Part shown: positions 8,847 to 63,144 of the stretch, one piece after another
Position numbering within the stretch: position 1 is the stretch's first letter
How the letters are laid out: every line of letters starts with the position of its first letter
Origin: Nitrososphaeraceae archaeon
Lineage (GTDB): Archaea; Thermoproteota; Nitrososphaeria; Nitrososphaerales; Nitrososphaeraceae
NCBI GenBank assembly: GCA_031316115.1
Contig: JALDRC010000010.1
Coordinates: 1 to 64,000 of the forward strand
DNA: 64,000 bases
Direction of reading: 5' to 3'
The notes under the pieces: generated by a model
What the model saw: only the letters and a program-made list of their open reading frames with translations
What the model was told of the DNA's origin: nothing
Database searches by the model: none
Program-made: the position numbers and the translations under genes

Positions 8847-9686
8847 TTAGTTGATATAATTGATCAGGTTCTGTGGTTTTTGAGGTTCCTTTTGGGATGT
8901 GCCTTGCGGCTGTTTGTTGGATGTGCCTTGCGGCTGTTTGTTGGATGTGCCTTGCGGCTGTTTGTTGGATGTGCCTTGCGGCTGTTTGTTGGATGTGCCT
9001 TGCGGCTGTTTGTTGGATGTGCCTTGCGGCTGTTTGTTGATGCCTTGCGGCTGTTTGTTGATGTGCCTTGCGGCTGTTTGTTGGATGTGCCTTGCGGCTG
9101 TTTGTTGGATGTGCCTTGCGGCTGTTTGTTGGATGTGCCTTGCGGCTGTTTGTTGGATGTGCCTTGCGGCTGTTTGTTGGATGTGCCTTGCGGCTGTTTG
9201 TTGGATGTGCCTTGCGGCCGTTTGTTGGATGTGCCTTGCGGCTGTTTGTTGGATGTGCCTTGCGGCTGTTTTTCGGTTGTTGGATGTGCCTTGCGGCTGT
9301 TTGTTGATGTGCCTTGCGGCTGTTTGTTGGATGTGCCTGCGGCCAGCCGTTGGATGTGCCTTGGTGGCTGTTTGTTGGATGTGCCTTGCGGCTGTTTGTT
9401 GATGTGCCTCTGCGGCTGTTTGTTGGATGTGCCTTGCGGCTGTTTGTTGAGGCTCTTGCGTCGTTTGCTGGATGTGCCTTGCGGCTGTTTGTTGGATGTG
9501 CCTTGCGGCTGTTTGTTGGATGTGCCTTTGCGCCGTTTGTTGGATGTGCCTTGCGGCTGTTTGTTGGATGTGCCTTGCGGCTGTTTGTTGGATGTGCCTT
9601 GCGGCTGTTTGTTGGATGTGCCTTGCGGCTGTTTGTTGGATGTGCCTTGCGGCTGTTTGTTGGATGTGCCTTGCGGCTGTTAACAT
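8847..9686 (-). other. Open frame across the 24-bp array (coding status doubtful)
   Basis: ATG at 9686 opens 279 codons made almost only of the octapeptides QQTAARHI and NKQPQGTS, ending KEPQKPQNLINYIN. All six frames of the array are stop-free because the unit is 24 bp and contains no stop in any frame, so openness is no evidence for translation. The frame switches phase inside irregular units. If translated it would be a disordered Gln-rich repeat protein just upstream of the exporter genes. Confidence 0.25.
8894..9681. repeat. G+C-rich 24-bp tandem array, about 33 units
   Basis: The unit GGATGTGCCTTGCGGCTGTT plus TGTT is repeated about 33 times over 788 bp. Most units are identical. A few are short (near 9037-9065 and 9300), long (near 9270) or scrambled (about 9335-9375, 9447-9475 and 9525-9540). 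The array is about 58% G+C in an approximately 30% G+C setting. It sits directly upstream of the ABC ATPase frame. The sharp base-composition step and near-perfect homogeneity point to recent expansion; an assembly effect in the irregular units cannot be excluded. Confidence 0.95.
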
Positions 9687-16126: not shown

Positions 16127-19100
16127 TCATAGATTTTCTGAAACCAAATCAAATATCTTTTCGGTAAGCTCTTCTATCATGTCTTCCCTTTGCATGAAAT
16201 CTTTGTTATTTGTATCCCTTAAAATATCGTATATTATCAGACTAATTCTTGTTTGAGAGGTTCTCTTTGTTCTCCATCCTATAATCTTTGTCTCTGGTTT
16301 TACATCTTCATATATCCTTTTGGTAATCTTTCTGCTAAAAGATTCATCTCTGTTTGTTATCTCTAGCAGAATTTCATAAACAGCTTGTTCAAATGTAGTT
16401 TTAAATCCTAATCTTGTCCTTTCTTTTCCAACATCTAGAAGTTCTTTATATATTCCTTTATAACTATTAAAATCTTTTGCATTCTCTCTTCTCTTTCTCT
16501 CTTCTTCTTCAATCAGTTTTTCCAATCGTTCCCTTATCTTGTCATAGTATACTGGATTTTCATTCTTTTTTTCCTGAATTATCTGTCTTATCTTGTTTTT
16601 AACAAGTGCGGTTCTTGCTTTATCATTTTTAAATCTTAGAATATCTACAAGAAAAGTTTCGTTGGTTACCTTTCTATAATCTATCAGGTTTTGCATACGT
16701 AAGGTGTCAATATAATCGTCTATCAACTGCTGAACTTTCTGTCCTTCAAGTCTGAAACTCATTCCATAACTTCCATAGAAATTTCTTAAAAGATTTCTCT
16801 TCTTGGACAGATATTTAAAATCATCAATGTATGGTCCTGCTTCTTTTCTTGGTAATACCGCATCCAAGGATTTGGAAAACATCTTAAAGGCATATTCAAA
16901 ATCCTCTCTAACATGTGCAGGTTCAAACTTTTCAATGATAAGGTCATTGTTATCTCTATCAGGAATATCAGAAAAAAACGAGATTACATCTGTATGTCTT
17001 GCTTTTAGCTCTTGTACCTCTTTTTCAATTGGAAGAAGAGCACCTTTTATATCCTGTTCATCAAAGATAGCAAGAGCCTGTTGTAATTCTTTTGTTATAC
17101 CACAATAATCAACTATCAAGCCATATGTCTTGGCTGGATTATATGGTCGGTTAACCCTTGCGATAGCCTGAAGAAGACCGTGTTCTCTTAAAGGATGGTC
17201 AAGATACATAACCTGTACTATGGGAACATCATATCCTACAAGTAGCATATCTACTACCACAAGTATTTGAATCTCATTTTCTGGAGTTTTGAAAAATTCA
17301 GATTCAAACTCTCTCTGTTCTTGTGTTAGAAAATATTCATCCCATGATGTTCCATCTCTGCCTTTTTCTCCCAAATGAGATGTCATTATGATTTTGGACC
17401 TTGGGGCTCCTAACTTGTCAAGTTCTCTTTTATATGTGACTGCTGCTTCTCTTGATGGAGCAACAAGTAAAGCCTTAAATCCATTTGGTTGAATATGTGT
17501 TGTAAAATGTTCAATAACATCTGCTGCAATTTTTCTAATCCTTTCTTTAGATTCTACAATTAGTTGTTTTGTTGCATATTCTTGTTTTAATCTCTCTCTT
17601 TCTTTCTCTGAGAGGTCTGAGAATACTCTTTGAAAGATTTTCGCTATATCCTCTTCCTTTTCTTTAATTATTTCTTGTACTCTTCCTACTATTTCTTTAC
17701 CTTGTACATAAAGGTCTGGTATCCTTTCCTCATAAAAGATTGGAAGAGTTGCTCCATCTGCCTTTGATTCTTCAAACGTATATCTATCCAAAAGTGGACC
17801 AAAGACTTTGTATGTACTTTTATCTCTTTTGTCTATTGGAGTACCAGTAAACGCAAAAAATACTGCATTGGGCATCGCTGACCTCATCGTTTCAGCCTGT
17901 AACTTGTACTGACTACGATGTCCTTCATCTACCAAAACAATAACTTTCTGGTCTGTATGGATAAGTCTTCCATATTTTGTTCCAAATTTTTGTATTGTAG
18001 TGATTATTGTTTTTCCTTTTGGATTCTGCAACAAGCGTTCAAATTCACTTGATGTTTTTGCTTTTATTGGTGTTGGGAATCCGCATGCCCAGAATGTTTC
18101 ATGAATCTGTTTGTCAAGCTGTGTTCTATCTGTTACTATTACTATGTGAGGGTTTCCGAATTTGTATATGAGTTGGGTTGCAAGCCATAACATTGAAAGG
18201 GATTTTCCTGAACCCTGGGTATGCCATACTACCCCGCCTTTGTCAGCAACAGAATTCTCATCTATATTAGCAAGTCTATCAACTGCTTTTGTTACTACTC
18301 TATATTGCTGATGTTTTGCAATCTTTTTTACCCTCTTGTTGTTTACTGTTTCATATATCACATAATTTTTTAATAAATCTAAAAGATGTTTTTTTGACAG
18401 CATTCCAGCAATTAAAATTTCCTGTTCTCTTGCCTTTTTTCTGTTACACATCTTTTCAATGTCTGATAAAGAAAGTGGTTCTGCCTCAGACCATCTTCCA
18501 TAATGATTCAGACTTGTGCCAACTGCACCATGTCTTGCAAGATATCCAGAAGTAGCAATAAGAATATGATTGTAAAACATTAGTTTTTCGAATCCGTATC
18601 CTCTCTCTTGATATTTGTACAGGTTTTTCTCTACTGCTTCCTGTACAGAGTTACGAATAGAAGGAGCTTTACATTCTATAATTACAAGAGGAATTCCATT
18701 TACAAACAAGACAATGTCTAGATATTTTGGTTCTCTTAAACCTTCAAGCTGAAACTGATTTGTTACCAAATAATCATTATTTTCAGGATTATCAAAATCA
18801 AATAAACAAATAGTTTTGAATACGTTGCCTTCTGCAAAGTTTTGTATAACAGTTATTGGTTCCAGTCCTGTGGACCTTGATAAACCAACAAGTTTAGCAT
18901 GAATCTTTTCATTTGTATCCATCATATCAAGATTTGATGGAAAAGAATCTTCTTTTATCTGGCCTATTGCCTCATAGACTCCATCTTCATCAAGTTCAGG
19001 ATTTAGTTTTCTTATTGCTTTTTCAAGTCTATCATAAAGTAATACTTCTCTGTAGTCTCTTCTCTCTCTGTTAAGCTCTGACTGATTTTTGTATTCGTAT

Positions 19101-19201
19101 CCCATTACAACAAGCTGATTTAATGCTGGTAGTTCTGATTCTTGATATTCTTCACTACCTTCTCTACCAGTATAAAAGACCTGACTACTAATCCTACTCA
19201 A
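16127..19201 (-). CDS. hsdR: Type I restriction enzyme R subunit (HsdR)
   Basis: This 1024-residue motor-endonuclease subunit is intact by sequence. The nuclease core is at Asp162, Glu176 and Lys178 (DIVLF then IIECKAP). The SF2 helicase motifs are Walker A HTQGSGKS (327-334), DEGH (425-428) and TGTP (452-455), with the second RecA domain ending in the Q-x-x-x-R motif region QAIARVNRPY. The C-terminal part (about 780-1024) is helical and is expected to contact the methylase complex. HsdR cleaves unmodified DNA only together with HsdM and HsdS. Here the only partner is a decayed HsdS tail 2 bp upstream; HsdM is absent from the window. The start is TTG at 19201, two bases after the HsdS stop, so the gene was once coupled to hsdS. 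Confidence 0.95.
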   Translation of the reverse strand: MSRISSQVFYTGREGSEEYQESELPALNQLVVMGYEYKNQSELNRERRDYREVLLYDRLEKAIRKLNPELDEDGVYEAIGQIKEDSFPSNLDMMDTNEKIHAKLVGLSRSTGLEPITVIQNFAEGNVFKTICLFDFDNPENNDYLVTNQFQLEGLREPKYLDIVLFVNGIPLVIIECKAPSIRNSVQEAVEKNLYKYQERGYGFEKLMFYNHILIATSGYLARHGAVGTSLNHYGRWSEAEPLSLSDIEKMCNRKKAREQEILIAGMLSKKHLLDLLKNYVIYETVNNKRVKKIAKHQQYRVVTKAVDRLANIDENSVADKGGVVWHTQGSGKSLSMLWLATQLIYKFGNPHIVIVTDRTQLDKQIHETFWACGFPTPIKAKTSSEFERLLQNPKGKTIITTIQKFGTKYGRLIHTDQKVIVLVDEGHRSQYKLQAETMRSAMPNAVFFAFTGTPIDKRDKSTYKVFGPLLDRYTFEESKADGATLPIFYEERIPDLYVQGKEIVGRVQEIIKEKEEDIAKIFQRVFSDLSEKERERLKQEYATKQLIVESKERIRKIAADVIEHFTTHIQPNGFKALLVAPSREAAVTYKRELDKLGAPRSKIIMTSHLGEKGRDGTSWDEYFLTQEQREFESEFFKTPENEIQILVVVDMLLVGYDVPIVQVMYLDHPLREHGLLQAIARVNRPYNPAKTYGLIVDYCGITKELQQALAIFDEQDIKGALLPIEKEVQELKARHTDVISFFSDIPDRDNNDLIIEKFEPAHVREDFEYAFKMFSKSLDAVLPRKEAGPYIDDFKYLSKKRNLLRNFYGSYGMSFRLEGQKVQQLIDDYIDTLRMQNLIDYRKVTNETFLVDILRFKNDKARTALVKNKIRQIIQEKKNENPVYYDKIRERLEKLIEEEERKRRENAKDFNSYKGIYKELLDVGKERTRLGFKTTFEQAVYEILLEITNRDESFSRKITKRIYEDVKPETKIIGWRTKRTSQTRISLIIYDILRDTNNKDFMQREDMIEELTEKIFDLVSENL

Positions 19202-19640: not shown

Positions 19641-20561
19641 CTAAAACAAACTTGGATGTTGTTCAATATGCTGTATAGAAAATCCGATATGTGAATATTG
19701 ATTTATACATTCATAATATCCCTGAGATTCTTGGTCATCTCCATTTATTCCAACAAATTCTGCATAGGTAGGAAATTCATCTTCCGTATAGTAATAAAGC
19801 ATACCATTCTGGTCAAGTGCTATATATGCATCACAGTTTGAAACTTGTAACTGTCTTTCATCAACACCATAAAGTTCTACAACAGGTGACATCAATCCCT
19901 TCTTATTGTCGGTATGGTACAATCCTAAAACATGTCCAATCTCATGCAATATTGCATTGTATGCCGTGTATTGACCATGTCCGTTCTTTTTTAAAAGTTC
20001 AGGTGTAAATGCTTGAGACCAAGCAGTAATGTCAACATATTGAATAACTCTGTCATTTCCATACTCTGTATATGCTATAATGGTATTTGCAAGAACCTCA
20101 GCTTCGTCTTTAGAATAATCAAAATCAGATCTATCATTTATCTCCTTTTCCATATCTGTTAATTTCTGCTGACTCTCTAGTGTACTAAATAATATGTCTG
20201 CTGAAGATACATCATCTATCTTCACGAAAGATATAATATTTTTCATCTTTACTTGCCAGTTATAAAGTGCAGCATCAACTATTGCATTAAAGTATTTGTT
20301 ATCTGAATCAACTACGTACGTCAGTATCCCATCATCCAGATTCTCATTCCAGAAACAACATACTTCTATCTTTTCTGCAGCATTTGCAGGTTCGATATCA
20401 ATACTAGTTAAAGAAAATAAAATACTTGAAATAACAATTATTCCAAGAATAACAAAAAAAGGATATGTTAAATCATTCTGGGGATTATCAAATAATAAAT
20501 ATTTACGAGCCTGAGTTTGTCTTACTATAATAACTTCCATGAAATTATCGATGGTTTTCAA
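19641..20561 (-). CDS. Secreted matrixin-like zinc metalloprotease (metzincin)
   Basis: This 306-residue protein has an N-terminal cytosolic tail of about 30 residues and one membrane/signal helix (33-53, then EPANAAEK). The catalytic domain carries HEIGHVLGLYH (206-216: His206, Glu207, His210, Gly213, His216), the metzincin zinc site, followed eight residues later by the Met-turn LMSP (Met224). Spacing and the upstream ITAWSQAFT and ADILFST blocks resemble matrixin (peptidase M10-type) domains. There is no obvious Cys-switch propeptide; Cys68/Cys69 lie near the start of the domain and could be disulfide-bonded or regulatory. It should act outside the membrane on proteins. ATG at 20561. The metzincin call is firm; the subfamily is inferred. 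Confidence 0.85.
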   Translation of the reverse strand: MKTIDNFMEVIIVRQTQARKYLLFDNPQNDLTYPFFVILGIIVISSILFSLTSIDIEPANAAEKIEVCCFWNENLDDGILTYVVDSDNKYFNAIVDAALYNWQVKMKNIISFVKIDDVSSADILFSTLESQQKLTDMEKEINDRSDFDYSKDEAEVLANTIIAYTEYGNDRVIQYVDITAWSQAFTPELLKKNGHGQYTAYNAILHEIGHVLGLYHTDNKKGLMSPVVELYGVDERQLQVSNCDAYIALDQNGMLYYYTEDEFPTYAEFVGINGDDQESQGYYECINQYSHIGFSIQHIEQHPSLF

Positions 20562-27110: not shown

Positions 27111-28060
27111 CTATTTGTCAATTTTAGCAAGCAGGTAGTTTCTCATATCCAGATGAAATCTTTTTGTTCTAAAGTATGAGGATATTTTATTTTTTAAATT
27201 TATAAATGATGGATAATATTGAACAACAAACAGATCGTTTTTAATTATATGCCATATATCTTCCAGTACCATAAATTCTGGAGATACAGTAGGAAGATAA
27301 ACTGTAATTAAATCTTGTTCGTGTTTATCAAAATATTCCAGTACATTTTTTGATTTATAATATTGTTTTGCTTTATCCAGAAAGAGATAGCATATTGGAA
27401 ATTTCCTATGGATTTGTTTTAGATAATCTAAAAATATACTTGCATTAAACCGAGCATATTTTCTGAATTGTTGTTTTCTTTCCAAACTTTTCGCACCAAA
27501 TAATACAGATTTCTGATTGGATCCAGTAATTCTGACAATTGAACTTTCATCTTCTCATATCCGTGCTTTTCTTACAAGTGAACTACAGAAGGAGAATGAA
27601 TGACCAGCATATACTGATGTAAATTCATCTTTTAAATTGTCCAGTATCATTCTGACTTTTTTAAAATATGCTTTCTCTTCCTAGGGTGTAATATTGACAT
27701 GTACTTTTTGTGATACTTTCTGTTTGAATCCCTACTTGTGCATGAGTCTATATATATGAGTGAAATGATATTTTATTCTACTTTTTCTTACAATCAAATC
27801 TTATACCTCTTTTGTGATGCTTCCTTTTTTGTTCGATGCTAACTCGTTTTGTATTTGGTATCTTATCGGTTATAGCATTTCTAGTGGTCTGCCATTCCTT
27901 GATCTGTCGTTTAACCCTTCTATTCCCTCTTCTCTGTATTTCTTTAACCATTCAGATGCTCATGTTCTGCTTCTATGTAGATCTCTTGCCACCTGTGCAG
28001 GAATCTGTATCTATTATAACCATTTAAAACAAGTAACATTCTTTCTTTTACATTAGTATC
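27111..28060 (-). pseudogene. IS630-type transposase decayed by stop codons only
   Basis: One unshifted frame can be read across about 950 bp. It begins with the HTH part VARDLHRSRT, TGA, ASEWLKKYREEGIEGLNDRS, then NGRPLEML, TAA, and later LMHK, TAG, GFKQKVSQKVHV, P, TAG, EEKAYFKKVRMI. It continues RKARI, TGA, EDESS and ends in the DDE half CYLFLDKAKQYYKSKNV, VYLPTVSPEF, LEDIWHIIKNDL. REEGIEGL, the LP..SPE block and LEDIWH-IK are typical of IS630 enzymes. Six in-frame stops (three kinds) and no indel were found. The last 124 codons remain open. Confidence 0.85.
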
Positions 28061-35344: not shown

Positions 35345-36130
35345 TTAGATTTCCTTATAAAAGTTTTTAAAAGATTCCATAATATTTTCCTTCTTATTAT
35401 CTTGTTGTCTTCTTTCTAGCACATTTTGCCATTCTATCGTATAAGAAGAAGTAACATCATCTACAGAGTTATATGAAAAAGCTAAAATGTACTTGTATCT
35501 TTTTGACCAATTTTTCTCATAGTAATGAGGATGGTTTAAAGAGACAGGATAGGCTAATGTAGAATCAACATGTATCCATTTCCCATCAATCAATGCTTCA
35601 TTCCAACAATGATCCAGATAATCTTGTACAATTCTTGTTTCAACGTATAAGGAATTTAAAATTGCACCAAATAGTATTGACCATTCACTGCATCTACCTA
35701 TTCTGCTATTGGCTATTTTTTTTATTTCGGCATATCTTGGAAATATTATTTTTGAGTTACAATTCAGACATTCATAAATTTCATTCATTCTTATCCTCCA
35801 AGAAATACCTTTTATTATGCTAAAATGCAAAGGTTTATTGCAATTTTGGCATTTTATGTTTTTGCTGACGTTGTTACTACTACTGCTATCCATCCATTTC
35901 ATATAATCTTGTTTAAACCAATCAAGAAGTGATTTTAAAATTTGGACGTTATTACTATTTAGTTTGCTTATTGTTATTAGCTCTTTAATTTTTGATGGAA
36001 TAATACTGTTAACATAAGACAGTATTTCTTTATCTTTGTATTGTCTTGCTACATTTTTATATAATATAAAAGAATCTTTTGTATAAGGATGTCTAAATGT
36101 ATTTCTGCTAAATTTATTGGTTTTAAACAT
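35345..36130 (-). CDS. Peptide:N-glycanase (Png1/NGLY1)-like transglutaminase-fold protein
   Basis: This 261-residue protein aligns by eye, in order, with the core of eukaryotic cytosolic PNGase. The blocks are LLDWFKQDYMKWM (68-80), zinc cysteines CQNC (94/97) and CLNC (121/124), FPRYAE (130-135), GRCSEW with catalytic Cys147, DHCWNE with His174, WIHVDS with Asp189, then YEKNWSKRYKYILAFS (204-219) and DDVTSSY (224-230). Cys-to-His spacing is 27, the same as Cys191-His218 of yeast Png1 as I recall it. In eukaryotes the enzyme removes N-glycans from misfolded glycoproteins. There is no signal peptide, so it is cytosolic. The PUB and PAW domains are absent. An intact triad and zinc site suggest activity; whether the substrate is a glycoprotein is inference. 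It is divergent from 36391. Confidence 0.85.
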   Translation of the reverse strand: MFKTNKFSRNTFRHPYTKDSFILYKNVARQYKDKEILSYVNSIIPSKIKELITISKLNSNNVQILKSLLDWFKQDYMKWMDSSSSNNVSKNIKCQNCNKPLHFSIIKGISWRIRMNEIYECLNCNSKIIFPRYAEIKKIANSRIGRCSEWSILFGAILNSLYVETRIVQDYLDHCWNEALIDGKWIHVDSTLAYPVSLNHPHYYEKNWSKRYKYILAFSYNSVDDVTSSYTIEWQNVLERRQQDNKKENIMESFKNFYKEI

Positions 36131-44885: not shown

Positions 44886-45797
44886 TTATTTAGATTCAGC
44901 TGAAGTAATTTTTATAAACCTTTGAAAAGCGTATTCTTGACTATTCCCGTTATTGGTAATATATAAAATAGGATTATCTTGTGAAAAATTATCAAGTTCT
45001 CTTATTTCCAACTCAGTTTCGAATTTTTTCAATAATGATAAAATAACTTGATAATCTATATTTGTCAAACTTTGAATTTTGGCACCTTCTCCAACGGTAG
45101 TACCTTCGGGAGAATAAATCGAACCACCAACCATTCCAGGACCAAAAGACTTTCCTGGTGCTCCCAAATTTAACAATACTCCTCCTGACATGTAAAGACC
45201 TGAATTATATCCTGCTCCAAATGTTATCAAGCTCCCTCCTCTAGCTTGTCCCATGGCTCTTTCCATGCATCCCTTTCTGACTAGAATATCAACACCATTA
45301 CTACCATATGTTGCTTGATTATTTTGTCCTGCAAGTTCTGTGGCAAACCCATCAACAACAATCTTACCAGAATAACCCTTATCAGCCAATCCATTTTCAG
45401 AATGACCTTTTACTGTCCATGTTCCATGAAAATTACAACCCGCTGCAAAGAAATTTCCAACATTTCCATCTACAATTAGATCTAGTTTTATGGGTTCTCT
45501 GAAACTTAATATTCCAATCCTGTAAAGTGCCTTAGGGTTTTTTATAGTAATTTTATTTTCCCCTTCAATTATTTTCCTTTTTAGAATAGAATTTACTGCT
45601 CTTTCGAAGATTAGCGGCGAGGATGTGATATCCTTAAACTTTTCTAAGGATGCCTTCTTTACACCTTGAGGTAGATCTACTCTATATTCTTTATATAACA
45701 TAAAATTCAGCCGTTGAAATTGTACATCTGGATTTGATGTTTTAGACCCTATAGAGTTTGCAATGGATCTTATTTGATCAATATCTAGAATATACAA
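44886..45797 (-). CDS. GXGXG-domain subunit of a glutamate-synthase-like complex
   Basis: This 303-residue protein is equivalent to the C-terminal beta-helix (GXGXG, alpha-subunit domain 3) of glutamate synthase. Repeating glycine-rich coils are plain: SFREPIKLDLIVDGNVGNFF, GLADKGYSGKIVVDGFA, ELAGQNNQATYGSNGVDILV, MGQARGGSLITFGAGYNSGL, MSGGVLLNLGAPGKSFGPGM and YSPEGTTVGEGA. Separate polypeptides of this type occur in N-methylglutamate synthase (MgsB) and the Glx proteins. It lacks any catalytic cysteine and has a structural role. It is the last gene of the nitrogen cluster but is separated from the amidotransferase gene by 323 bp, so it may have its own promoter. Long N-terminal extension (1-90) of unknown role. 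Confidence 0.8.
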   Translation of the reverse strand: MYILDIDQIRSIANSIGSKTSNPDVQFQRLNFMLYKEYRVDLPQGVKKASLEKFKDITSSPLIFERAVNSILKRKIIEGENKITIKNPKALYRIGILSFREPIKLDLIVDGNVGNFFAAGCNFHGTWTVKGHSENGLADKGYSGKIVVDGFATELAGQNNQATYGSNGVDILVRKGCMERAMGQARGGSLITFGAGYNSGLYMSGGVLLNLGAPGKSFGPGMVGGSIYSPEGTTVGEGAKIQSLTNIDYQVILSLLKKFETELEIRELDNFSQDNPILYITNNGNSQEYAFQRFIKITSAESK

Positions 45798-46120
45798 TTT
45801 GTTTTATATCGAATATCTAGAAATGTTACTGATATATCTTTTATTCTATTACAAAAAGTTGACAACAATTTTAATAATTAAAAATTATCTCGACAGAGTT
45901 TTCTTTATCATTATCAGAATGAATAAAGAATTTAAAAGAAATAGAACTTGATTTTAAAAGAGATGTAATGGAAAAAGACCCTGGATATAGATTTTCATCC
46001 AAATAAAGTGAAATAATATTTATTAGATTTTCAAATATAGAAGCATATCAAGAGTCATTTTGTATTACAAGTTTTGTTTTGTATTTGAGATCACTTGCAT
46101 TAAAGATATTCAAACATTAT
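45798..46120. other. Gap inside the nitrogen operon
   Basis: These 323 bp between the amidotransferase and GXGXG genes hold no frame of note. They may contain a promoter for the last gene. Confidence 0.35.
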
Positions 46121-46996
46121 TTAATTACAAATCGAACTCATTTTGATCTGGTTGTAAAATATTTTTGGTTTTCCGGGTTCAGGAGTTTCTATGTAATGTG
46201 TTGCTCCTACCGAATCTAAAGCAGATAAATCAGTAGCGATCGCCCAGAAAGCAGGATAGTCTTTATTTCCTGGATTATATCCAAAAATCCCTTTTCTTGC
46301 TCCATTTTTGTCTCTAACTAAGGCTAGAGAATCGGATGTAGCAACTATATATGTAAAAGGACCATCTGCTTTATTGATAAATTCATAATTTGCTTTTTCT
46401 ATATCTCCGTGCCTCAAAATTTGGTCTGAAATAAATACTGCGATGACCTCAGAATCACATTTAGAAAAAAACCTATATCCTTTTAGTTCAAGTGAAGATC
46501 TTAACCGCGAATAATTTGTGATTTCTCCATTATGGACCACGGCCATATCTGGGTAAGCTGTTGTGCTAAATGGATGTGCATTGTAAGGATTAACTCTACT
46601 GCTTGTGGCTATCCTCAAATGACCTATCCCATGTGTACCTAGAACCGACTTTATTTTATATTTTAATTCAAGATCTCTGACAAGTCCTACATCTTTTAAA
46701 AGGTTCATCTCTTTTGCAAAACTCGCTAGAATAATATCAGGGTCTTTGTTTAATTGATTCATACTACTGGCTAGTCTTTCTCTTGATACTTTTTCTGTAA
46801 AAGAACAATATACCCCATTGATTTTTCTATAATAATCTATTTTGTAAAACTCTTTGTTTGTTTCTTTATTGAAGATGGCTACGCCTGTACTATCCTGGGC
46901 TCTTATCTGCTGACTCTCCATCATTTTGTATAGAAGAGAACCGATAGGAAAGTGTTCTTTGCAATTTTCCAACATGACAGCACATATTCCACACAT
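46121..46996 (-). CDS. Class II (Ntn) glutamine amidotransferase subunit, GltB1/MgsA-like
   Basis: This 291-residue protein starts MCGICAV, so Cys2 becomes the N-terminal nucleophile after Met removal, as in all class II amidotransferases. Further family marks are GHLRIATSS, NAHPFS, VVHNGEITNY (oxyanion Asn-Gly), FFSKCDSEVIA (glutamine-binding Asp) and GPFTYIVA. It hydrolyses glutamine and delivers ammonia, presumably to the FMN subunit encoded by the operon. It is a stand-alone domain, as in MgsA/GlxB, not fused as in standard GltB. ATG at 46996, 3 bp after the stop of 47000-48181: tight operon. Confidence 0.9.
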   Translation of the reverse strand: MCGICAVMLENCKEHFPIGSLLYKMMESQQIRAQDSTGVAIFNKETNKEFYKIDYYRKINGVYCSFTEKVSRERLASSMNQLNKDPDIILASFAKEMNLLKDVGLVRDLELKYKIKSVLGTHGIGHLRIATSSRVNPYNAHPFSTTAYPDMAVVHNGEITNYSRLRSSLELKGYRFFSKCDSEVIAVFISDQILRHGDIEKANYEFINKADGPFTYIVATSDSLALVRDKNGARKGIFGYNPGNKDYPAFWAIATDLSALDSVGATHYIETPEPGKPKIFYNQIKMSSICN

Positions 46997-46999
46997 TTT

Positions 47000-48181
47000 T
47001 TATTCTCCTCCTATTGATTTAAGCACGTCTCTAACTTCTGAATAAGTCATATTCAATTCTTTATTACTGAGGAATTCATCAATTAGTTCGCCTATTGTAT
47101 CTAGATAAGTTTTGTCTATTCCTTCAAGTGGAATATTTCCTTGCAAGCTTGCATCTATACTAGAAGTACGCAAATCGGATGGAGATATATTATGAAAATC
47201 GCTATACCCTAATGCTGCAGGTATTCCCCTAAGTTCTTCTTTTGTTCCTATCATATGCCTGTAAACACTTTCTGCAATAGATATTACATCGTAAGGCTTT
47301 TCAGAGTAAATGTAAGAATTTGCTATCAATATACTTGTCGAATATCCTATAATATCTGCACCTAGTGCTGCTACTTTGGCAATCTTACCTGTACTGTTTA
47401 CGTCTCCTGCAATTACTAAAATTGCATTATCACTACTCTCATCCTTACTTTTATAATAACTATTTAGTGCATTTCTTGCATCACAAATTACTTTTATTGC
47501 ATGTTTGCCATTGTATCTTGAACTTTTCGTGATCTTTTCAGTATCAACTAGAATCCCATCTGTTTTCAAATCCAAGATGGAATTAAAACTTGATGGAAAA
47601 ACATTACTAACATCCACTAATATAGGACCGTCAAATTGTTCTCTTAAATCTCTAATTATGTCAACCGAAGAGTCGTCTTTATATTCAAACACTAGCCCAT
47701 CTGCGCAGAATTCGTTGCACTCACCTAAAAGATCACCAGGATGATTTTCTGAAATAGACGATATTTTTTTAAATAAAGGATATTTTCTTTTATCCTTTTT
47801 TGTATTTATTTCTCCCTCCAAAATTATTCCTACTACCTGTCCTTGTTCAGCTAGTCTGTTTAAGGCAAGATGTAAAGAATCTAGGGAATAAGAATCCATA
47901 TCAATACTTCCATAGATTATCAAAGGTATATTCAAAACAATCTTTCTAGACTTGCCAATTCCAATGGAAATGTCCAGGTTTATGGTTTCCCTATAAGGAT
48001 CATAAGCAGGTCTTGAGAGTTGAGCCCCTATCAAAGTCACATAATCCCATAGATTTATGGCTCTAAGATTGATGTCACGAGTCTTTCTAATGTTATCATC
48101 CATAGAAGCAGAACGTGGTATACCTGTCTTTGCAAGCTCCAATACGGCTCTTCTAATCATGAATTTGTCTGAATCATTCAA
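47000..48181 (-). CDS. FMN-fold glutamate-synthase paralogue lacking the Fe-S cysteines
   Basis: This 393-residue protein is related to the FMN-binding GltB2 domain encoded just upstream (48241-49740). Shared landmarks are IPLIIYGSIDMDSYSLDSLHLALNRLAEQG (in part) against VPFFVSGMSYGSLKLPAKIALHLALNKLAKEG, and VIAGDVNSTGKIAKVAALGADIIGYST against the VHGSVWDSERIAKCIALGANGVGIGTG segment. The region that holds the 3Fe-4S cysteines in the neighbour (Cys390/396/401) here reads SILIANSYIYSEKPYD without cysteine, and the glutamate-channel GQGAKIGHGG loop is gone. It is probably a non-catalytic or regulatory partner subunit. It overlaps nothing but lies 59 bp after the previous stop and 3 bp before the amidotransferase. 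ATG at 48181. Confidence 0.75.
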   Translation of the reverse strand: MNDSDKFMIRRAVLELAKTGIPRSASMDDNIRKTRDINLRAINLWDYVTLIGAQLSRPAYDPYRETINLDISIGIGKSRKIVLNIPLIIYGSIDMDSYSLDSLHLALNRLAEQGQVVGIILEGEINTKKDKRKYPLFKKISSISENHPGDLLGECNEFCADGLVFEYKDDSSVDIIRDLREQFDGPILVDVSNVFPSSFNSILDLKTDGILVDTEKITKSSRYNGKHAIKVICDARNALNSYYKSKDESSDNAILVIAGDVNSTGKIAKVAALGADIIGYSTSILIANSYIYSEKPYDVISIAESVYRHMIGTKEELRGIPAALGYSDFHNISPSDLRTSSIDASLQGNIPLEGIDKTYLDTIGELIDEFLSNKELNMTYSEVRDVLKSIGGE

Positions 48182-48240
48182 AATTGTTTAACCTCGGCTT
48201 GAAATACTTGCGAATCATTTCTATCTTCCAAACCTCTCAA

Positions 48241-49740
48241 TTATTTATTCTCCAGCCTTTCATTTATTCTTCGGTTTCTACTATCAATGGCTTTCTTTAC
48301 CTTTTCCTTTACCAGGTCTTTAAAAGTAACACCGTCTTCTAACATCAAACCACAAAGCATACTAGATAACTCGTCGGTTGCAACAAGGTCGTCTTTTCTA
48401 AGATCATTAATGCTTTTTCTCCCTAGCGAACCAGCAATATTTTTTAGCTCAGATAATGTTCCTTTAACATAGTTAACTATTCCTGTCACGCTTTGTTCTA
48501 TGTCCAATTTTTCATATGATCCAGTTAATCCTGCTGGACATACATTTGTATAACAATCTTGCACAAGAGTACACCCCATTGAAAGAAGAAAACCTGTACC
48601 TATACCAACGCCATTAGCACCTAATGCAATACATTTAGCTATTCTCTCAGAATCCCATACACTCCCATGAACTATTAACTTGAACTCATCCTTTGCAGTT
48701 ATTGAATAATAATCTTCAATTGCTTTTCTTGATGGAATAAGAGATGGTACTGTATTTATTCCAATGATATCTCGGAGTTCCCAAGGAGCAGCTCCAGTTC
48801 CTCCTACAAAACCATCAATCGAAGCTGCATCAGCATAGGATTTGAGTATTATTTCAATATCATCATATACGTGCGAACATCCTACTTTTACTATTATAGG
48901 TGATTTCCAATCCGTAATTTCTCTCAACTCCAGAATCTTTGCTACCAAGTCTTCCGGACCCAAAATATCCAGATGTCTAGAAGGTGAATGTGCTGCTTTA
49001 TAGGACGGAATTCCTCTATTCTCTGCAACTAGATCTGTTACCTTTGGCCCAGGTAGTAAGCCACCATGACCTATCTTTGCTCCTTGACCGATCTTTATTT
49101 CTATAGCATCAGCATTCAAAAGATAACTTGGATCTTTCCAGAATCTTCCAGATGCATACTGAGTAACCAATGGATATAAACGAGAAAAAAGCAGATCCCT
49201 ATCTATTGACTCTAGATTGTGTTCTTTTAGTAGTCGATCAGCATAATCAAGAATACTTTCATGTCTTTTTTTGGATACATTCGAACAAGATTCTTCAGAA
49301 CCGTACAGTTCCCAGGGTAATGCACCACCTTCTCCGGTATTCATTATCATGTTTATTCCTTCTTTAGCCAGCTTGTTTAATGCAAGATGAAGTGCTATCT
49401 TGGCAGGAAGTTTCAAAGATCCATAGCTCATACCAGAAACAAAAAATGGAACGTTTGTAGATATAACATTGCTAGAATATCTTCCTCCCAATATGAAAGT
49501 AGTATCTATATCATTGTAGGAAACATCATTTTCTTTTGGTTTTATTTCTGAACCTATTATCTTAATTGAAGGAAAATAATCATTTGGAGAGCGGGCACCT
49601 AGACCGGAATATGGAACTTCTGAATCATTTACTTTTCTTACGTCGACAATCAATTTATTTAGATCAAAATAGCTGCGCGATGTCTCTGCAGCTTTCAAAA
49701 TGTGTCTTTTTAGATCTAGTACATCTTTTGAATACGGCAT
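48241..49740 (-). CDS. FMN/3Fe-4S glutamate-synthase-type subunit (GltB2/MgsC-like)
   Basis: This 499-residue protein is the catalytic oxidoreductase module of glutamate synthase. Landmarks are VSGMSYGSLKLPAKIALHLA (in part, FMN site), NTGEGGALPWEL (134-144), KIGQGAKIGHGGLLPG (216-230), GTGAAPWEL, the phosphate-binding LGANGVGIGTG, and the 3Fe-4S ligands C390-x5-C396-x4-C401 followed by PAGLTG. It would reductively add ammonia to 2-oxoglutarate or a related reaction such as N-methylglutamate formation. The electron donor is not encoded here (no GltD-like subunit), so ferredoxin is plausible. ATG at 49740, 41 bp after the glnA stop, same strand. Confidence 0.92.
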   Translation of the reverse strand: MPYSKDVLDLKRHILKAAETSRSYFDLNKLIVDVRKVNDSEVPYSGLGARSPNDYFPSIKIIGSEIKPKENDVSYNDIDTTFILGGRYSSNVISTNVPFFVSGMSYGSLKLPAKIALHLALNKLAKEGINMIMNTGEGGALPWELYGSEESCSNVSKKRHESILDYADRLLKEHNLESIDRDLLFSRLYPLVTQYASGRFWKDPSYLLNADAIEIKIGQGAKIGHGGLLPGPKVTDLVAENRGIPSYKAAHSPSRHLDILGPEDLVAKILELREITDWKSPIIVKVGCSHVYDDIEIILKSYADAASIDGFVGGTGAAPWELRDIIGINTVPSLIPSRKAIEDYYSITAKDEFKLIVHGSVWDSERIAKCIALGANGVGIGTGFLLSMGCTLVQDCYTNVCPAGLTGSYEKLDIEQSVTGIVNYVKGTLSELKNIAGSLGRKSINDLRKDDLVATDELSSMLCGLMLEDGVTFKDLVKEKVKKAIDSRNRRINERLENK

Positions 49741-49781
49741 TATAATTATTTCACTTTAAAATGGAACGCATAGAGATGGCA

Positions 49782-51296
49782 TCAGACGTTACCGTACATA
49801 TAGAATTCTCTTGGAGATGGAATCGATGCTACTTTTATATGTTCATCTTTTTTAATCTCGCAATACATCTCTAGAAATTCACTTGTAAACGCAGGTTTTA
49901 GGAATTCCATATCGCTCTCTAGCGATTCTATGGCATCTTGCAAAGATGTGGGTAATTTTTTAATTCCATATTCCATTTTTTTATGTTCTGATAGTTTGTA
50001 GATATCTTCATCTACTGGATCTGGAACTGTAATTTTCTTGTCTATACCGTCCAAACCTGCAAGTAACAATGCTGCCTCAACAAGATAGATATTGGAACTT
50101 GGATCTGGTGTTCTATATTCTATCCTCTTTCTTTTTTCCATTTTTCGAAAGTGCGCAGGAATTCTTATGCTTACAGATCTGTTCATTTTACTCCATGCTA
50201 CATTTATGGGAGCCTCATAGCCTGGTACTAATCTCCTATAAGAGTTCGTTGTAGGATTAGTAAATGCACATAATCCCTCTGCATGCTCAATCAACCCTCC
50301 GATATAATATAATGCTGTTTGACTTAACTCTGCATATTCATCTGCAGGATCATAGAACAAGTTAACATCTTCATTTTTCTTCTTCCCCCACAGACTCTGA
50401 CTAACATGCATCCCTGAACCATTATCTTGGGCAACAGGTTTTGGCATAAAATTCGCAACCATTCCACGTTTTGCAGCCGATTCCTTTACTGTTTTCTTAT
50501 AAGTAACTACTTTATCGGCCATTGGAACAAGACTATCAAATGACATTTGAATTTCACATTGTCCTGCTGTAGCTACCTCGTGATGATGAGCTTCAACCTT
50601 GATTCCAAAATATTGGCGTAATACATCGGATACTTCATCTCTAAAGTCGGTTAAACTATCTGCAGGAGGTGCAGGAAAATATCCGCTTTTGAAAGGAATT
50701 GTGTATCCTCCGTTAGAATTCCCATTTCCCCATGGAGCCTCTGTAGATTCAATGGAATACCCTGTTCCGCCTGAACAATTAACCGCCGACATAGCATTTG
50801 GCAATAATGTTATCTTGTTGAATACAAAAAATTCCAATTCCGGCCCCCAATAACTGTTCTCAAATCCTTTATTCTTTGCGAATTCGGCTGCCTTCTGTGC
50901 AATAAATCTTGGATCCCTACTGTACCGAGCTCCGTTAAAACCTTCATAGATATCAACAAACATACGTGCAGTTGTTGAACCATACATGTTACTAATACTA
51001 TGATGATTTTTATCGAAATAATTTGGTAGAATAGCAAATGTATCTGGATCAGGTTTTAGTACCATATCAGATTCCTGAATTTCTCTGAACCCTCTTATAG
51101 AACTTCCATCTAATCTGGGTATACCATTTTTAAATGAATCTTCTGTAATCTCTTCTCCTTGGACACTTATTTGTTGTAAAAATCCAAATGGATCACAAAA
51201 ATTCAACCTAACCCATTTTATATTCATTTGTTCTATTTCATTAACAACATCTAAGTATTTTTTTTTTTGATCCTGATCCGTTCGCGCTATTTGCAT
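49782..51296 (-). CDS. glnA: Glutamine synthetase, type I
   Basis: This 504-residue enzyme forms glutamine from glutamate, ammonia and ATP. Family marks are present in order: FCDPFG, DGSSIRGF, GPELEFFVF, VEAHHHEVATAGQCEI, NGSGMHVSQSLW, NSYRRLVPGYEAPI, then RIPAHFRKMEKRKRIEYRTPD. Length and motifs fit GSI; the adenylylation-loop region does not match the bacterial NLYDLP site. It heads a five-gene minus-strand cluster with dissected glutamate-synthase-like subunits, so it likely supplies glutamine to them. ATG at 51296 lies about 25 nt from a TATA-like box, suggesting a leaderless transcript. A divergent Lrp/AsnC gene and a pair of 15-bp direct repeats lie upstream. A gamma-glutamylmethylamide-synthetase-like role is a less likely alternative. 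Confidence 0.93.
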   Translation of the reverse strand: MQIARTDQDQKKKYLDVVNEIEQMNIKWVRLNFCDPFGFLQQISVQGEEITEDSFKNGIPRLDGSSIRGFREIQESDMVLKPDPDTFAILPNYFDKNHHSISNMYGSTTARMFVDIYEGFNGARYSRDPRFIAQKAAEFAKNKGFENSYWGPELEFFVFNKITLLPNAMSAVNCSGGTGYSIESTEAPWGNGNSNGGYTIPFKSGYFPAPPADSLTDFRDEVSDVLRQYFGIKVEAHHHEVATAGQCEIQMSFDSLVPMADKVVTYKKTVKESAAKRGMVANFMPKPVAQDNGSGMHVSQSLWGKKKNEDVNLFYDPADEYAELSQTALYYIGGLIEHAEGLCAFTNPTTNSYRRLVPGYEAPINVAWSKMNRSVSIRIPAHFRKMEKRKRIEYRTPDPSSNIYLVEAALLLAGLDGIDKKITVPDPVDEDIYKLSEHKKMEYGIKKLPTSLQDAIESLESDMEFLKPAFTSEFLEMYCEIKKDEHIKVASIPSPREFYMYGNV

Positions 51297-51318
51297 ATAC
51301 TAGTGTCAACATGCCCAC

Positions 51319-51381
51319 ATATAAAGTATTTCATAGTTTTGTTTAACATATAAGAGATCTAATGCGGTTTTGTTTAACATA
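51319..51381 (-). promoter_or_regulatory. glnA promoter with two direct-repeat operator candidates
   Basis: On the minus strand CTTTATAT (51326-51319) is a TATA-like box about 25 nt before the glnA ATG. Just upstream of it GTTTTGTTTAACATA occurs twice (51336-51350 and 51367-51381, plus-strand orientation) with a 31-bp period, i.e. three helical turns, so both copies face the same side of the DNA. They are good candidates for binding of the divergent Lrp-type regulator or another factor. Confidence 0.6.
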
Positions 51382-51636
51382 CATTAAGTTCACTTCAATA
51401 ATAGTTAAGTAATACTTTTCAAGCATATTTGTAACCTTCATAAATAACATTATTATGAAAAAGTATATTTGTATCGTATAGAAACTTTAGGTATTGTTCA
51501 AGTAATATGTTTGTAAAAAAGATCTTTTTTATAATAAATTATTCTTGAAAATAATTTTAATATAATTTATATGAAATCATCATCTGTTGAAGTTACCTTG
51601 TAAGACGAAAATATGTAAGGGTTTGTATCTGTAAAG

Positions 51637-51644
51637 TATAAAAA
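51637..51644 (+). promoter_or_regulatory. TATA-like box of the Lrp/AsnC gene
   Basis: TATAAAAA-type sequence about 26 nt upstream of ATG 51666, consistent with a leaderless archaeal transcript. Confidence 0.5.
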
Positions 51645-51665
51645 TGTTTAGCACCAACCATAAAG

Positions 51666-52124
51666 ATGATGCTCCATACCAGTTCTTTGGATGATTTAGA
51701 CATAAAAATACTAAAAAAGCTAATTTCTGATGCTAGATTATCATATCGTGCTATTGCTGAACAGATTGGAGTTTCGCCTCCCACCATACTTGCGAGGGTA
51801 GAAAAGCTTGAAAATAACGCCACTATAAAATCATATTCAGCAATACTTGATCATGAAAAATTAGGTTATGATTTAACAGCAATAATTGAAGTTACAGCTG
51901 TCAAAAATAAAGTTGTAGAAGTTGAAAAGATAATATCTAAATACCAAAATGTGTGTGCGATCTATGACATTACCGGTTTGACGGACATGGTAATTGTTGC
52001 AAAGTTTAAAAATAGAAAGGAACTAAGTAATTTTGTAAAAAAAGATTTATCAATGCCTTATGTAGAAAGGACTAATACGCATATTGTATTTATAACAGTG
52101 AAGGAGGATTTTCGTATTTTATAA
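51666..52124 (+). CDS. Lrp/AsnC-family transcription regulator
   Basis: This 152-residue protein has an N-terminal winged helix-turn-helix (about 8-55: LDDLDIKILKKLISDARLSY, AIAEQIGVSPPTILARVEKL) and a C-terminal RAM ligand-binding domain (about 70-148: LTAIIEVTAV, VCAIYDITGLTDMVIVAKF, HIVFITVKED). The G-x-x-D motif of effector-binding RAM domains is present as ITGLTDM. Lrp-type proteins sense amino acids such as glutamine in archaea. The gene is divergent from glnA, 370 bp apart, so it may control the operon and itself. ATG 51666 or the next codon ATG 51669. Confidence 0.92.
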   Translation: MMLHTSSLDDLDIKILKKLISDARLSYRAIAEQIGVSPPTILARVEKLENNATIKSYSAILDHEKLGYDLTAIIEVTAVKNKVVEVEKIISKYQNVCAIYDITGLTDMVIVAKFKNRKELSNFVKKDLSMPYVERTNTHIVFITVKEDFRIL

Positions 52125-52410: not shown

Positions 52411-53339
52411 GGTAATACCTAAGGTGTTGGAACAGTTTTAACGAGAATATTTATTAACATATTAAAGATATTTCTATTTCTATTGTTGAATCTAAATTCT
52501 ATTTCTTTTAGATACAGATGACAATATTGTTTTGGTACTCCTCTAGAATGATATAACCAAGTATTAGCATAACTCCAGAATCCTTCAATTCCGTTAATAT
52601 GACTATCCTCTCTTACGTATTCTTCTCTTCCATGTGCAACACCTTTGTGTTTTCCAATCATATTTAACATTGCCTATGCAGTATGATCATCTGAATAATA
52701 CAAACTACCTTTCTTAGTATATTGTTTTATTAAAGGAATGAATGTTTCATGCTTTCTATCTGATACCGGAAATGTAATAACAATTCCATTCCTCTTGTAG
52801 ATACCAAAAACCAGATTTTTGTGCTCAATTGAACCCCATCCACACTTTCCTCCTCTTCTGCGATCACCAAATAATGCTTCATCAATTTCTATGTACCAGA
52901 TAATTGTAATTTCCTTATCTCATCTAATAAAGAATCATAAATCGCCTGTCTAAATATTTTAAATGTTCTTTCTATTGTCTTAAGACCTATAGGTACATAA
53001 AATCTGATTCTGTATTCTGGTACACCTAATGTAAAGAGATAAACAAGGTGAGATACTATATCTGGTGGATAATTGAATTCTCCAATATACGTACCAGTAA
53101 AATCATTAAATTTATATCTACATCTTTTACATCCATAACGTTTATCCTTTTCAAAATAATACAGCATCCTATAGTTACATTTTATACATCTTCTTCTTCC
53201 CTTCCATCTTGCATGACAAAAATAACCCCTACTTTTTGTCACACTTCCAATGAGTTTAACATTACTTATCTCACGCATGAATCAAGCATGATGTTATATC
53301 AATAACTATCTAATTTCTGTTCCAAAAGATGGGGTATTT
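52411..53339 (-). mobile_element. IS1595 (ISXO2-like) element with broken transposase
   Basis: Terminal inverted repeats AATACC-7-TTGGAACAG lie at 52414-52435 and, reversed, 53317-53338, bounded by the direct repeat CATTAAATAA. The transposase (minus) starts at 53278 with zinc-ribbon CIKC and CKRC, FNDFTGTYIGEFNYPPDI, breaks frame at about 52890, continues WYIEIDEALFGDRRRGGKCG, meets a TAG (DDHTA then AM), and ends with HINGIEGFWSYANTWLYH, GVPKQYCHLYLKEIEFRFNN. These are the DDE_Tnp_IS1595 landmarks. One frameshift and one stop inactivate it, but ends and target duplication are intact. Confidence 0.88.
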
Positions 53340-62100: not shown

Positions 62101-63144
62101 TGTACTTGCATACATAGGTAACAGATTCACTTACCAACATGGGTAACACTTTTTATCTGCTTGATTTTCTTGTTACCATTATAACTATTTAATCTTCCTT
62201 TTATAAGAAACATTTCAGATGGTGTATGACCACCTATACCACCATGTTCTCTTTCTTCATTGTATGCTTTGACAAACATGGAATACATTATTTTTCCATC
62301 TTCTACATTAGGAATATTTTCTACTGCTAGAAACTCATTCTTTACAATCTTGTTATATGCTTCAATTTTTCCCTGTAATTGTGGATATCTAGCAGGTATG
62401 GATTTATCTTTTATATTGTTACGTCGTAGAAAACGTCTGAATATCTTGGATGTAAACTGTTTACCATTATCATGCATTACCTTTTCTGGTTTACCATTAT
62501 CTACTATGTAGTCTTCCAGTACATCTATTACATCTACACTCCTTTTTCTCTCAGTCCATTCACTTGCTATCTTTCTTGAACAATCATCTTCACAACTGAT
62601 AACATAGTTCTTTTGAGCACAATTCTCTATGTAAAATGGTCCTAAAATGTCCATCTGTACCATTTGATTAGGTTTTTTCATTGCAAATCTTTTGTATTTT
62701 CTGTGTCTGATTTTACATGAAAAGATATTCAAACCATGTCTTTTCAGTATATTGTATATGGTTCTGGTACTTAGTGATACCTCCTTTAGTCTTTTTAATC
62801 TGAATTTTATACGATTGCATCCAAATCTTTTTGTTGTACGTAAATTTAGTATTTCCTGTTCTATCTCTTTTGTTACTTTTCCAGGTTGGATATTATGAGG
62901 TTTTGTACTTTTATCATGTAAACCTTCTATTCCATACTTTAGGTACCTGTTTTTCCACTTGTAGTATATCTTTCTAGATATCTGATATCTAATACAGATA
63001 TCAATTACAGTATCTCCAGGCCATTCTTTTTCATGAAGTAAATTATATTTTGTTTGTAAATCTATTTCCTATAAACTTCCTAGCAGAGCTAGAGAGTGTT
63101 ACCCATGTCAGTAAATGAAATTGTAACCTATGTGTGTAAGTACA
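62101..63144 (-). mobile_element. IS481-type element with approximately 50-bp terminal inverted repeats
   Basis: The ends match as imperfect inverted repeats: TGTACTTGCATACATAGGT ... ACATGGGTAACACT at 62101-62150 and the reverse of AGTGTTACCCATGTCAG ... ACCTATGTGTGTAAGTACA at 63094-63144. The transposase frame (minus) runs from about 63073 to 62127 without a stop: helix-turn-helix IRYQISRKIYYKWKNRYLKY, GIEGLHDK, then integrase core MVQMDILGPFYIEN, DDCSRKIASEW, VMHDNGKQFTS, ARYPQLQGKIEAYNKIVKNE and EREHGGIGGHTPSEMF (D-D-E residues present). No ATG, GTG or TTG precedes TTG 62732 in this frame, and an upstream frame (SSSARKFIGNRFTNKI) seems to be the real N-terminus, so a frameshift near 63045-63060 is likely. 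A truncated copy is at 24140-24624. Confidence 0.85.
62127..62732 (-). CDS. IS481-type transposase, catalytic part
   Basis: This 201-codon TTG-started section of the transposase covers the rve integrase core with the acidic triad: Asp in VQMDILG, Asp in MHDNGKQF and Glu in GKIEAYNK. The full frame extends upstream to about 63073 (HTH region) without a usual start codon. See the element entry for the probable N-terminal frameshift. It is likely inactive unless frameshifting or transcriptional slippage joins both parts. Confidence 0.7.
   Translation of the reverse strand: MNIFSCKIRHRKYKRFAMKKPNQMVQMDILGPFYIENCAQKNYVISCEDDCSRKIASEWTERKRSVDVIDVLEDYIVDNGKPEKVMHDNGKQFTSKIFRRFLRRNNIKDKSIPARYPQLQGKIEAYNKIVKNEFLAVENIPNVEDGKIMYSMFVKAYNEEREHGGIGGHTPSEMFLIKGRLNSYNGNKKIKQIKSVTHVGK

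Follow-up and report, generated by a model that had tools for sequence, protein, structure and literature searches.

A gene of a Nitrososphaeraceae archaeon, located on the minus strand of the window (the whole stretch of 64,000 nucleotides that we analysed), encodes a protein of 261 residues that belongs to the Png1/NGLY1 family of peptide:N-glycanases (PNGases) by its fold, its catalytic triad, its zinc site and its position in phylogenetic trees. Based on its sequence and predicted structure, this protein would be a minimal, soluble, zinc-type PNGase that most likely acts in the cytosol, cleaving the bond that links the innermost GlcNAc to Asn in N-glycopeptides or unfolded N-glycoproteins, a reading to which we assign a probability of about two in three and in which both the activity and the glycan specificity are predicted. 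Cytosolic PNGase is known as an enzyme of eukaryotic ER-associated degradation (ERAD), and the human gene, NGLY1, is a disease gene. The features of the archaeal gene are the following (residue numbers are those of the protein).

35345 to 36130, minus strand: coding sequence of the Png1-like protein, 261 residues, ATG start (open reading frame, PDB matches, AlphaFold, Foldseek)
35957 to 36079, minus strand: N-terminal three-helix segment conserved in the archaeal family, residues 18-58 (FILYKNVARQYKDKEILSYV..IP; AlphaFold helices 18-30, 34-43 and 46-58)
35894 to 35950, minus strand: helix LLxWFKxDYMKW, residues 61-79, as in Png1 (PDB match, alignment, AlphaFold)
35840 to 35851, minus strand: first zinc CxxC knuckle, Cys94 and Cys97 (invariant in 38/38, aligned with yeast C129/C132)
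35759 to 35770, minus strand: second zinc CxxC knuckle, Cys121 and Cys124 (invariant in 38/38, aligned with yeast C165/C168)
35690 to 35692, minus strand: codon of Cys147, predicted catalytic nucleophile, in GRCSEW (residue check, alignment)
35609 to 35611, minus strand: codon of His174, predicted catalytic, in DHCWNE (residue check, alignment)
35564 to 35566, minus strand: codon of Asp189, predicted catalytic, in HVDS (residue check, alignment)

By searching all PDB chains with phmmer, we found yeast PNGase at 2e-25 and mouse PNGase at 2.3e-25 and 8.5e-24, and no match beyond these two enzymes up to E=1. Matches of such strength exclude a chance resemblance. A profile made from seven archaeal orthologues alone reached 2.3e-41 with mouse PNGase and 1.5e-37 with the yeast enzyme, the next chain being at 0.27. 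The initial annotation had proposed Cys147-His174-Asp189 as the triad and cysteines 94, 97, 121 and 124 as zinc ligands, and all seven were confirmed residue by residue. The sequence blocks that it quoted are also all present and in the order it gave: LLDWFKQDYMKW (68-79), FPRY (130-133), GRCSEW (145-150), DHCWNE (173-178), HVDS (187-190) and YEKNWSKRYKY (204-214). Likewise, the 27 residues that it counted from Cys to His do match yeast Png1, where C191 and H218 are chain positions 184 and 211 of 1x3w, whereas the His-Asp spacing is 15 in the archaeal protein and 17 in yeast. The zinc ligands of yeast Png1 are Cys129, 132, 165 and 168 (PMC9102325). They align with archaeal Cys94, 97, 121 and 124, and the two triads align as well. 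Domain models were less specific, with Transglut_core (2.5e-10) as the sole Pfam match and no NCBIfam model above cut-off; the PUB and PAW domains, sought with Pfam, are absent from the 261 residues. No member of the archaeal family has a signal-like or membrane-like stretch, the highest 19-residue hydropathy being 1.51 compared to 2.4-3.0 in membrane relatives, and by sequence the protein is predicted to be soluble.

The open reading frame is a real gene, as its frame is kept by orthologues in many genomes, and it is under purifying selection, with a dN/dS of about 0.1-0.3 across ten pairs of archaeal orthologues (in the comparison of the window gene with that of locus L030, silent sites are saturated). 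In an alignment of 38 archaeal family sequences, the triad and the four zinc cysteines are invariant, as are Y24, Q30 and P45 in the N-terminal segment; the family is diverse, with 41-55% identity to the window protein. For the comparison with human NGLY1, numbering was anchored on the nucleophile, which we take to be Cys309. Missense variants of NGLY1 are listed at W236, W244, C283, R328, D386, L318, Y342, C355 and R390 (PMC9102325). Of these, the first four are kept in 38/38 archaeal sequences and D386 in 37/38, the remaining sequence having a gap there; the last four positions are not conserved in the family.

The AlphaFold2 model, computed from the 38-sequence family alignment, had a pLDDT of 89 and a pTM of 0.88. 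When it was compared to the PDB with Foldseek, PNGases took ranks 1 to 4, led by mouse PNGase (E 2.5e-16, query-normalised TM 0.74, 260 alignment columns) and including yeast PNGase at 1e-13 and 2.5e-13. XPC/Rad4 came next, from 1.6e-6 to 3e-4, and then a bacterial transglutaminase-like protein at 9e-4 and mammalian transglutaminases at 5e-3 and weaker. Thus, with PNGases as the best matches of the model and generic transglutaminases at about 1e-3 and weaker, the structural comparison agrees with the initial annotation, and the predicted overall fold is nearest to PNGase among solved structures. XPC/Rad4 shares the transglutaminase fold but is a catalytically inactive DNA-repair protein (PMC10318531), whereas the triad of the archaeal protein is intact. 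Within this fold, PNGase is known as the active branch and XPC/Rad4 as the inactivated one (Anantharaman et al. 2001, cited in PMC10318531).

Taken in detail, the archaeal protein has in common with Png1 (yeast, PDB 1x3w and 3esw) and NGLY1 (mouse, 2f4m) the order of the triad, the Cys-His spacing, the core fold, the four-Cys zinc domain placed between the WFKxDFxKW helix and FPRY, and the C-terminal segment YExNWxKxxxYxxAFxxxxxxDVT. Over the catalytic core, the mouse and yeast enzymes are about 40% identical to the archaeal family. It differs from them by its size of 261 residues without PUB or PAW, by N-terminal helices of an archaeal type and by DHCWNE in place of DHVWTE. Moreover, the residue two positions after Asp189 is Thr in 38/38 archaeal sequences and Cys in mouse and yeast, and the active-site loops of the archaeal family carry a 3-residue insert past this Thr and lack a 2-residue insert between His and Asp. 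The bacterial PNGase F also removes N-glycans, but it is secreted and relies on acidic Asp/Glu residues (PMC9102325) rather than on Cys-His-Asp. It was not matched in any search with the archaeal protein.

Phylogenetic trees were built without the zinc-domain columns and included two eukaryotic PNGases, both long-branched. The archaeal zinc family and eukaryotic PNGase formed a clade apart from the other archaeal transglutaminase-like proteins, with a support of 96/83 for all rows, 100/99 once long-branched rows were dropped and 99/98 on a 102-column catalytic core, in line with the placement implied by the initial annotation. Constraining either the eukaryotes or the zinc family to group with the short zinc-less archaeal relatives was rejected (AU p 0.007 and 0.025 for the former, 0.003 and 0.025 for the latter). 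The pattern of a generic transglutaminase-like protein, whose closest relatives would be zinc-less and branch together with it, was not what we observed.

These zinc-less relatives are a second archaeal family, from other Thermoproteota (L009, L010, L012, L013, L014, L017 and L019, with match regions around 1500-1830 of the loci). They are short (about 160-190 residues) and form a separate clade, but share with the window's family the triad, a downstream YERxWKK..AFE segment and a mean core identity of 36%. In the PDB, the 100-residue match of one of them, L017, to mouse PNGase had an E of 6.2e-22, and PNGases were its sole matches below E=0.1; for a zinc-less relative, PNGases still ranked first with a predicted structure of moderate confidence (pLDDT 72). 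Their raw core identity to mouse PNGase is 41%, compared to 40% for the window's family, and past the catalytic His their loops have the lengths seen in eukaryotic PNGase, unlike the loops of the window's family. Hence, the claim that the window protein is far closer to Png1 than to generic transglutaminase-like proteins holds for structure and tree, but the idea of a catalytic core uniquely Png1-like among archaeal proteins is not supported. As the zinc-less family also matches PNGase, what sets the window's family apart is its zinc domain combined with its place in the tree.

Because only two eukaryotic sequences were included, both on long branches, the trees give membership and not the direction of descent. 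According to one scenario, which is compatible with the PNGase reading as it concerns descent and not mechanism, an ancestor of soil Nitrososphaerales acquired a eukaryotic Png1 gene. This fits a gene that is present in 41 of 300 genomes of the order, namely 34 of the window's family (Nitrososphaeraceae) and 7 of a single Nitrosopumilaceae genus, with no zinc-type relative found elsewhere in our sample of the phylum. Most sampled Nitrososphaeraceae carry the gene, and Nitrososphaerota account for all 39 loci in named genomes. On the other hand, the archaeal family is monophyletic (99/98) and is not nested within the two eukaryotic sequences, although two are too few to decide; its sequence diversity also speaks against a transfer, as does the GC content of the gene, which matches the genome (27.5%, compared to 29.2% for the whole window). 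On balance, we give such a transfer slightly less than an even chance. In the opposite scenario, the zinc-type cytosolic PNGase would predate eukaryotes, and Png1/NGLY1 would derive from an archaeal enzyme, with the window's family as its surviving relative, used before and without an ER for N-glycoprotein turnover or for recovering sugar and nitrogen from chitobiose-type N-glycans, which we propose tentatively and regard as rather unlikely. A viral origin was rejected: three queries against IMG/VR contigs and a search of phage records returned no relative, and there was no convincing viral fold match. A plasmid search gave two weak bacterial transglutaminase-like fragments and nothing more.

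The gene stands alone. A LamG-domain gene converges on it from about 0.9 kb downstream, and about 0.26 kb upstream lies a divergent ORF that matched nothing in Pfam. No neighbour is shared by all members of the family, hence no conserved operon, and none of the neighbours shared between loci shows a link to Rad23, Cdc48 or the proteasome. Those of the window (the LamG-domain protein, unknown ORFs, a metallophosphatase and a DUF72 protein) did not suggest any function. Six Nitrosocosmicus-type loci, but not that of the window, have a divergent gene for an M1 aminopeptidase about 0.3 kb upstream, and in 10 loci an MFS transporter gene is convergent; both neighbours are clade-specific. Farther away in the window are a 24-bp unit (GGATGTGCCTTGCGGCTGTTTGTT) repeated in tandem about 33 times (8895-9681), with long mechanical ORFs on both strands, a type I restriction HsdR-like protein (16127-19201) and a predicted archaeal metalloprotease of the matrixin type (M10; 19641-20561). 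The region 44886-52124 holds split glutamate synthase-like genes (GXGXG, class-II amidotransferase and glutamate synthase core, by Pfam) together with genes for a glutamine synthetase-like protein and an Lrp-like regulator, both read from translations. Several mobile-element remnants are also present, including transposase or integrase fragments at 27111-27485 (DDE_3), 52889-53278 (weak IS1595 zinc ribbon) and 62127-62732 (rve).

Since the triad is intact and set in a PNGase frame, Cys147 would be expected to attack the side-chain amide of a glycosylated Asn. Hydrolysis of the GlcNAc-Asn bond would then leave an aspartate in the peptide and release a glycosylamine, which would in turn yield ammonia and the free glycan. 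Attack by the triad, conversion of Asn to Asp and glycosylamine breakdown are established PNGase chemistry. The host genome (3.16 Mb, 98.8% complete), in which the Png1-like protein is the sole transglutaminase-core protein, encodes AglB/STT3 (2.1e-27). The family to which this genome belongs also includes Nitrosocosmicus and Nitrososphaera; its assignment to the Nitrososphaeraceae is based on the named loci that carry the gene and on family codes in common. Archaea attach their N-glycans outside the cell and have, to our knowledge, no ER, and we know of no archaeal route that brings external glycoproteins into the cytosol. Since the protein appears soluble and the glycans are outside the cell, we consider cytosolic glycopeptide turnover or salvage the likeliest role, ahead of an ERAD-like step. 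Peptide catabolism would be in keeping with the M1 aminopeptidase found beside the gene in six relatives. Neither a GH85 ENGase nor a glycosylasparaginase-type enzyme (asparaginase_2) was found in the host genome, and the eukaryotic downstream pathway is therefore missing. As for a possible substrate, the N-glycan of Nitrososphaera viennensis is a hexasaccharide with a chitobiose core, attached to Asn-X-Ser/Thr, which is nitrogen-rich and was proposed to be a nitrogen store (PMC12153357).

Three complete genomes of one genus, each a single contig (2,833,868, 2,527,938 and 2,954,373 bp), lack the gene. We take these to be Nitrososphaera gargensis, N. viennensis and N. evergladensis. As all three have AglB/STT3, the gene is no obligatory part of N-glycosylation. 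Nitrosocosmicus lacks an S-layer (PMC12448741). The Png1-like gene is present in this genus. Given this and its absence from the genome that we presume to be N. viennensis, a strict link to N-glycosylation is disfavoured. Broken copies were found in three genomes of the order (G480, G502 and G554) and at loci L066 and L067; being absent or broken in some genomes, the gene is thus useful but dispensable. The decayed copies of L066 (809-1590) and L067 (6001-6780), from two Nitrososphaeraceae MAGs, have stop codons and a broken frame over the stretch around the nucleophile, which may be an assembly error, yet is similar in both. One MAG, CRAIB_MAG96, has three different copies (L031, L033 and L039), either true paralogues or the product of a mixed bin.

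The decayed copies, the altered surroundings of the active site and the AglB-containing genomes without the gene all argue against the PNGase reading. An enzyme of Png1 ancestry and fold could instead act on a different amide, as a cytosolic peptidase, deamidase or transamidase of the transglutaminase superfamily. Such a shift would account for the unusual environment of the triad, with Thr for Cys after HVDS and changed loop lengths, and for a gene distribution out of step with proven N-glycosylation (PMC12153357); besides, a plant PNGase was reported to have transglutaminase activity too (PMC9102325). However, the protein retains its zinc domain, its triad, FPRY and the conserved positions of disease variants, and the tree places it with PNGase, away from other transglutaminase-like proteins, so that we consider a different amide improbable, though a serious competitor to glycan removal. 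Finally, despite a Pfam result limited to Transglut_core and zinc-less archaeal transglutaminase-like proteins that resemble PNGase as well, it is highly improbable that this is an ordinary archaeal transglutaminase-like protein with a superficial likeness to Png1, as PDB matches, model, Foldseek ranking and trees all point to PNGase.

Among open papers, we found no description of an archaeal Png1; subscription papers were outside this search, and an earlier mention is possible. An archaeal member of this family, together with archaeal N-glycans built on chitobiose (PMC12153357), raises the question of whether glycoprotein turnover by PNGase predates the ER or came from eukaryotes. With neither PUB nor PAW, the protein is also a compact PNGase core that stands by itself and might become a tool for N-glycan release, while the archaeal sequences provide natural data on the positions of NGLY1 that do not tolerate change.
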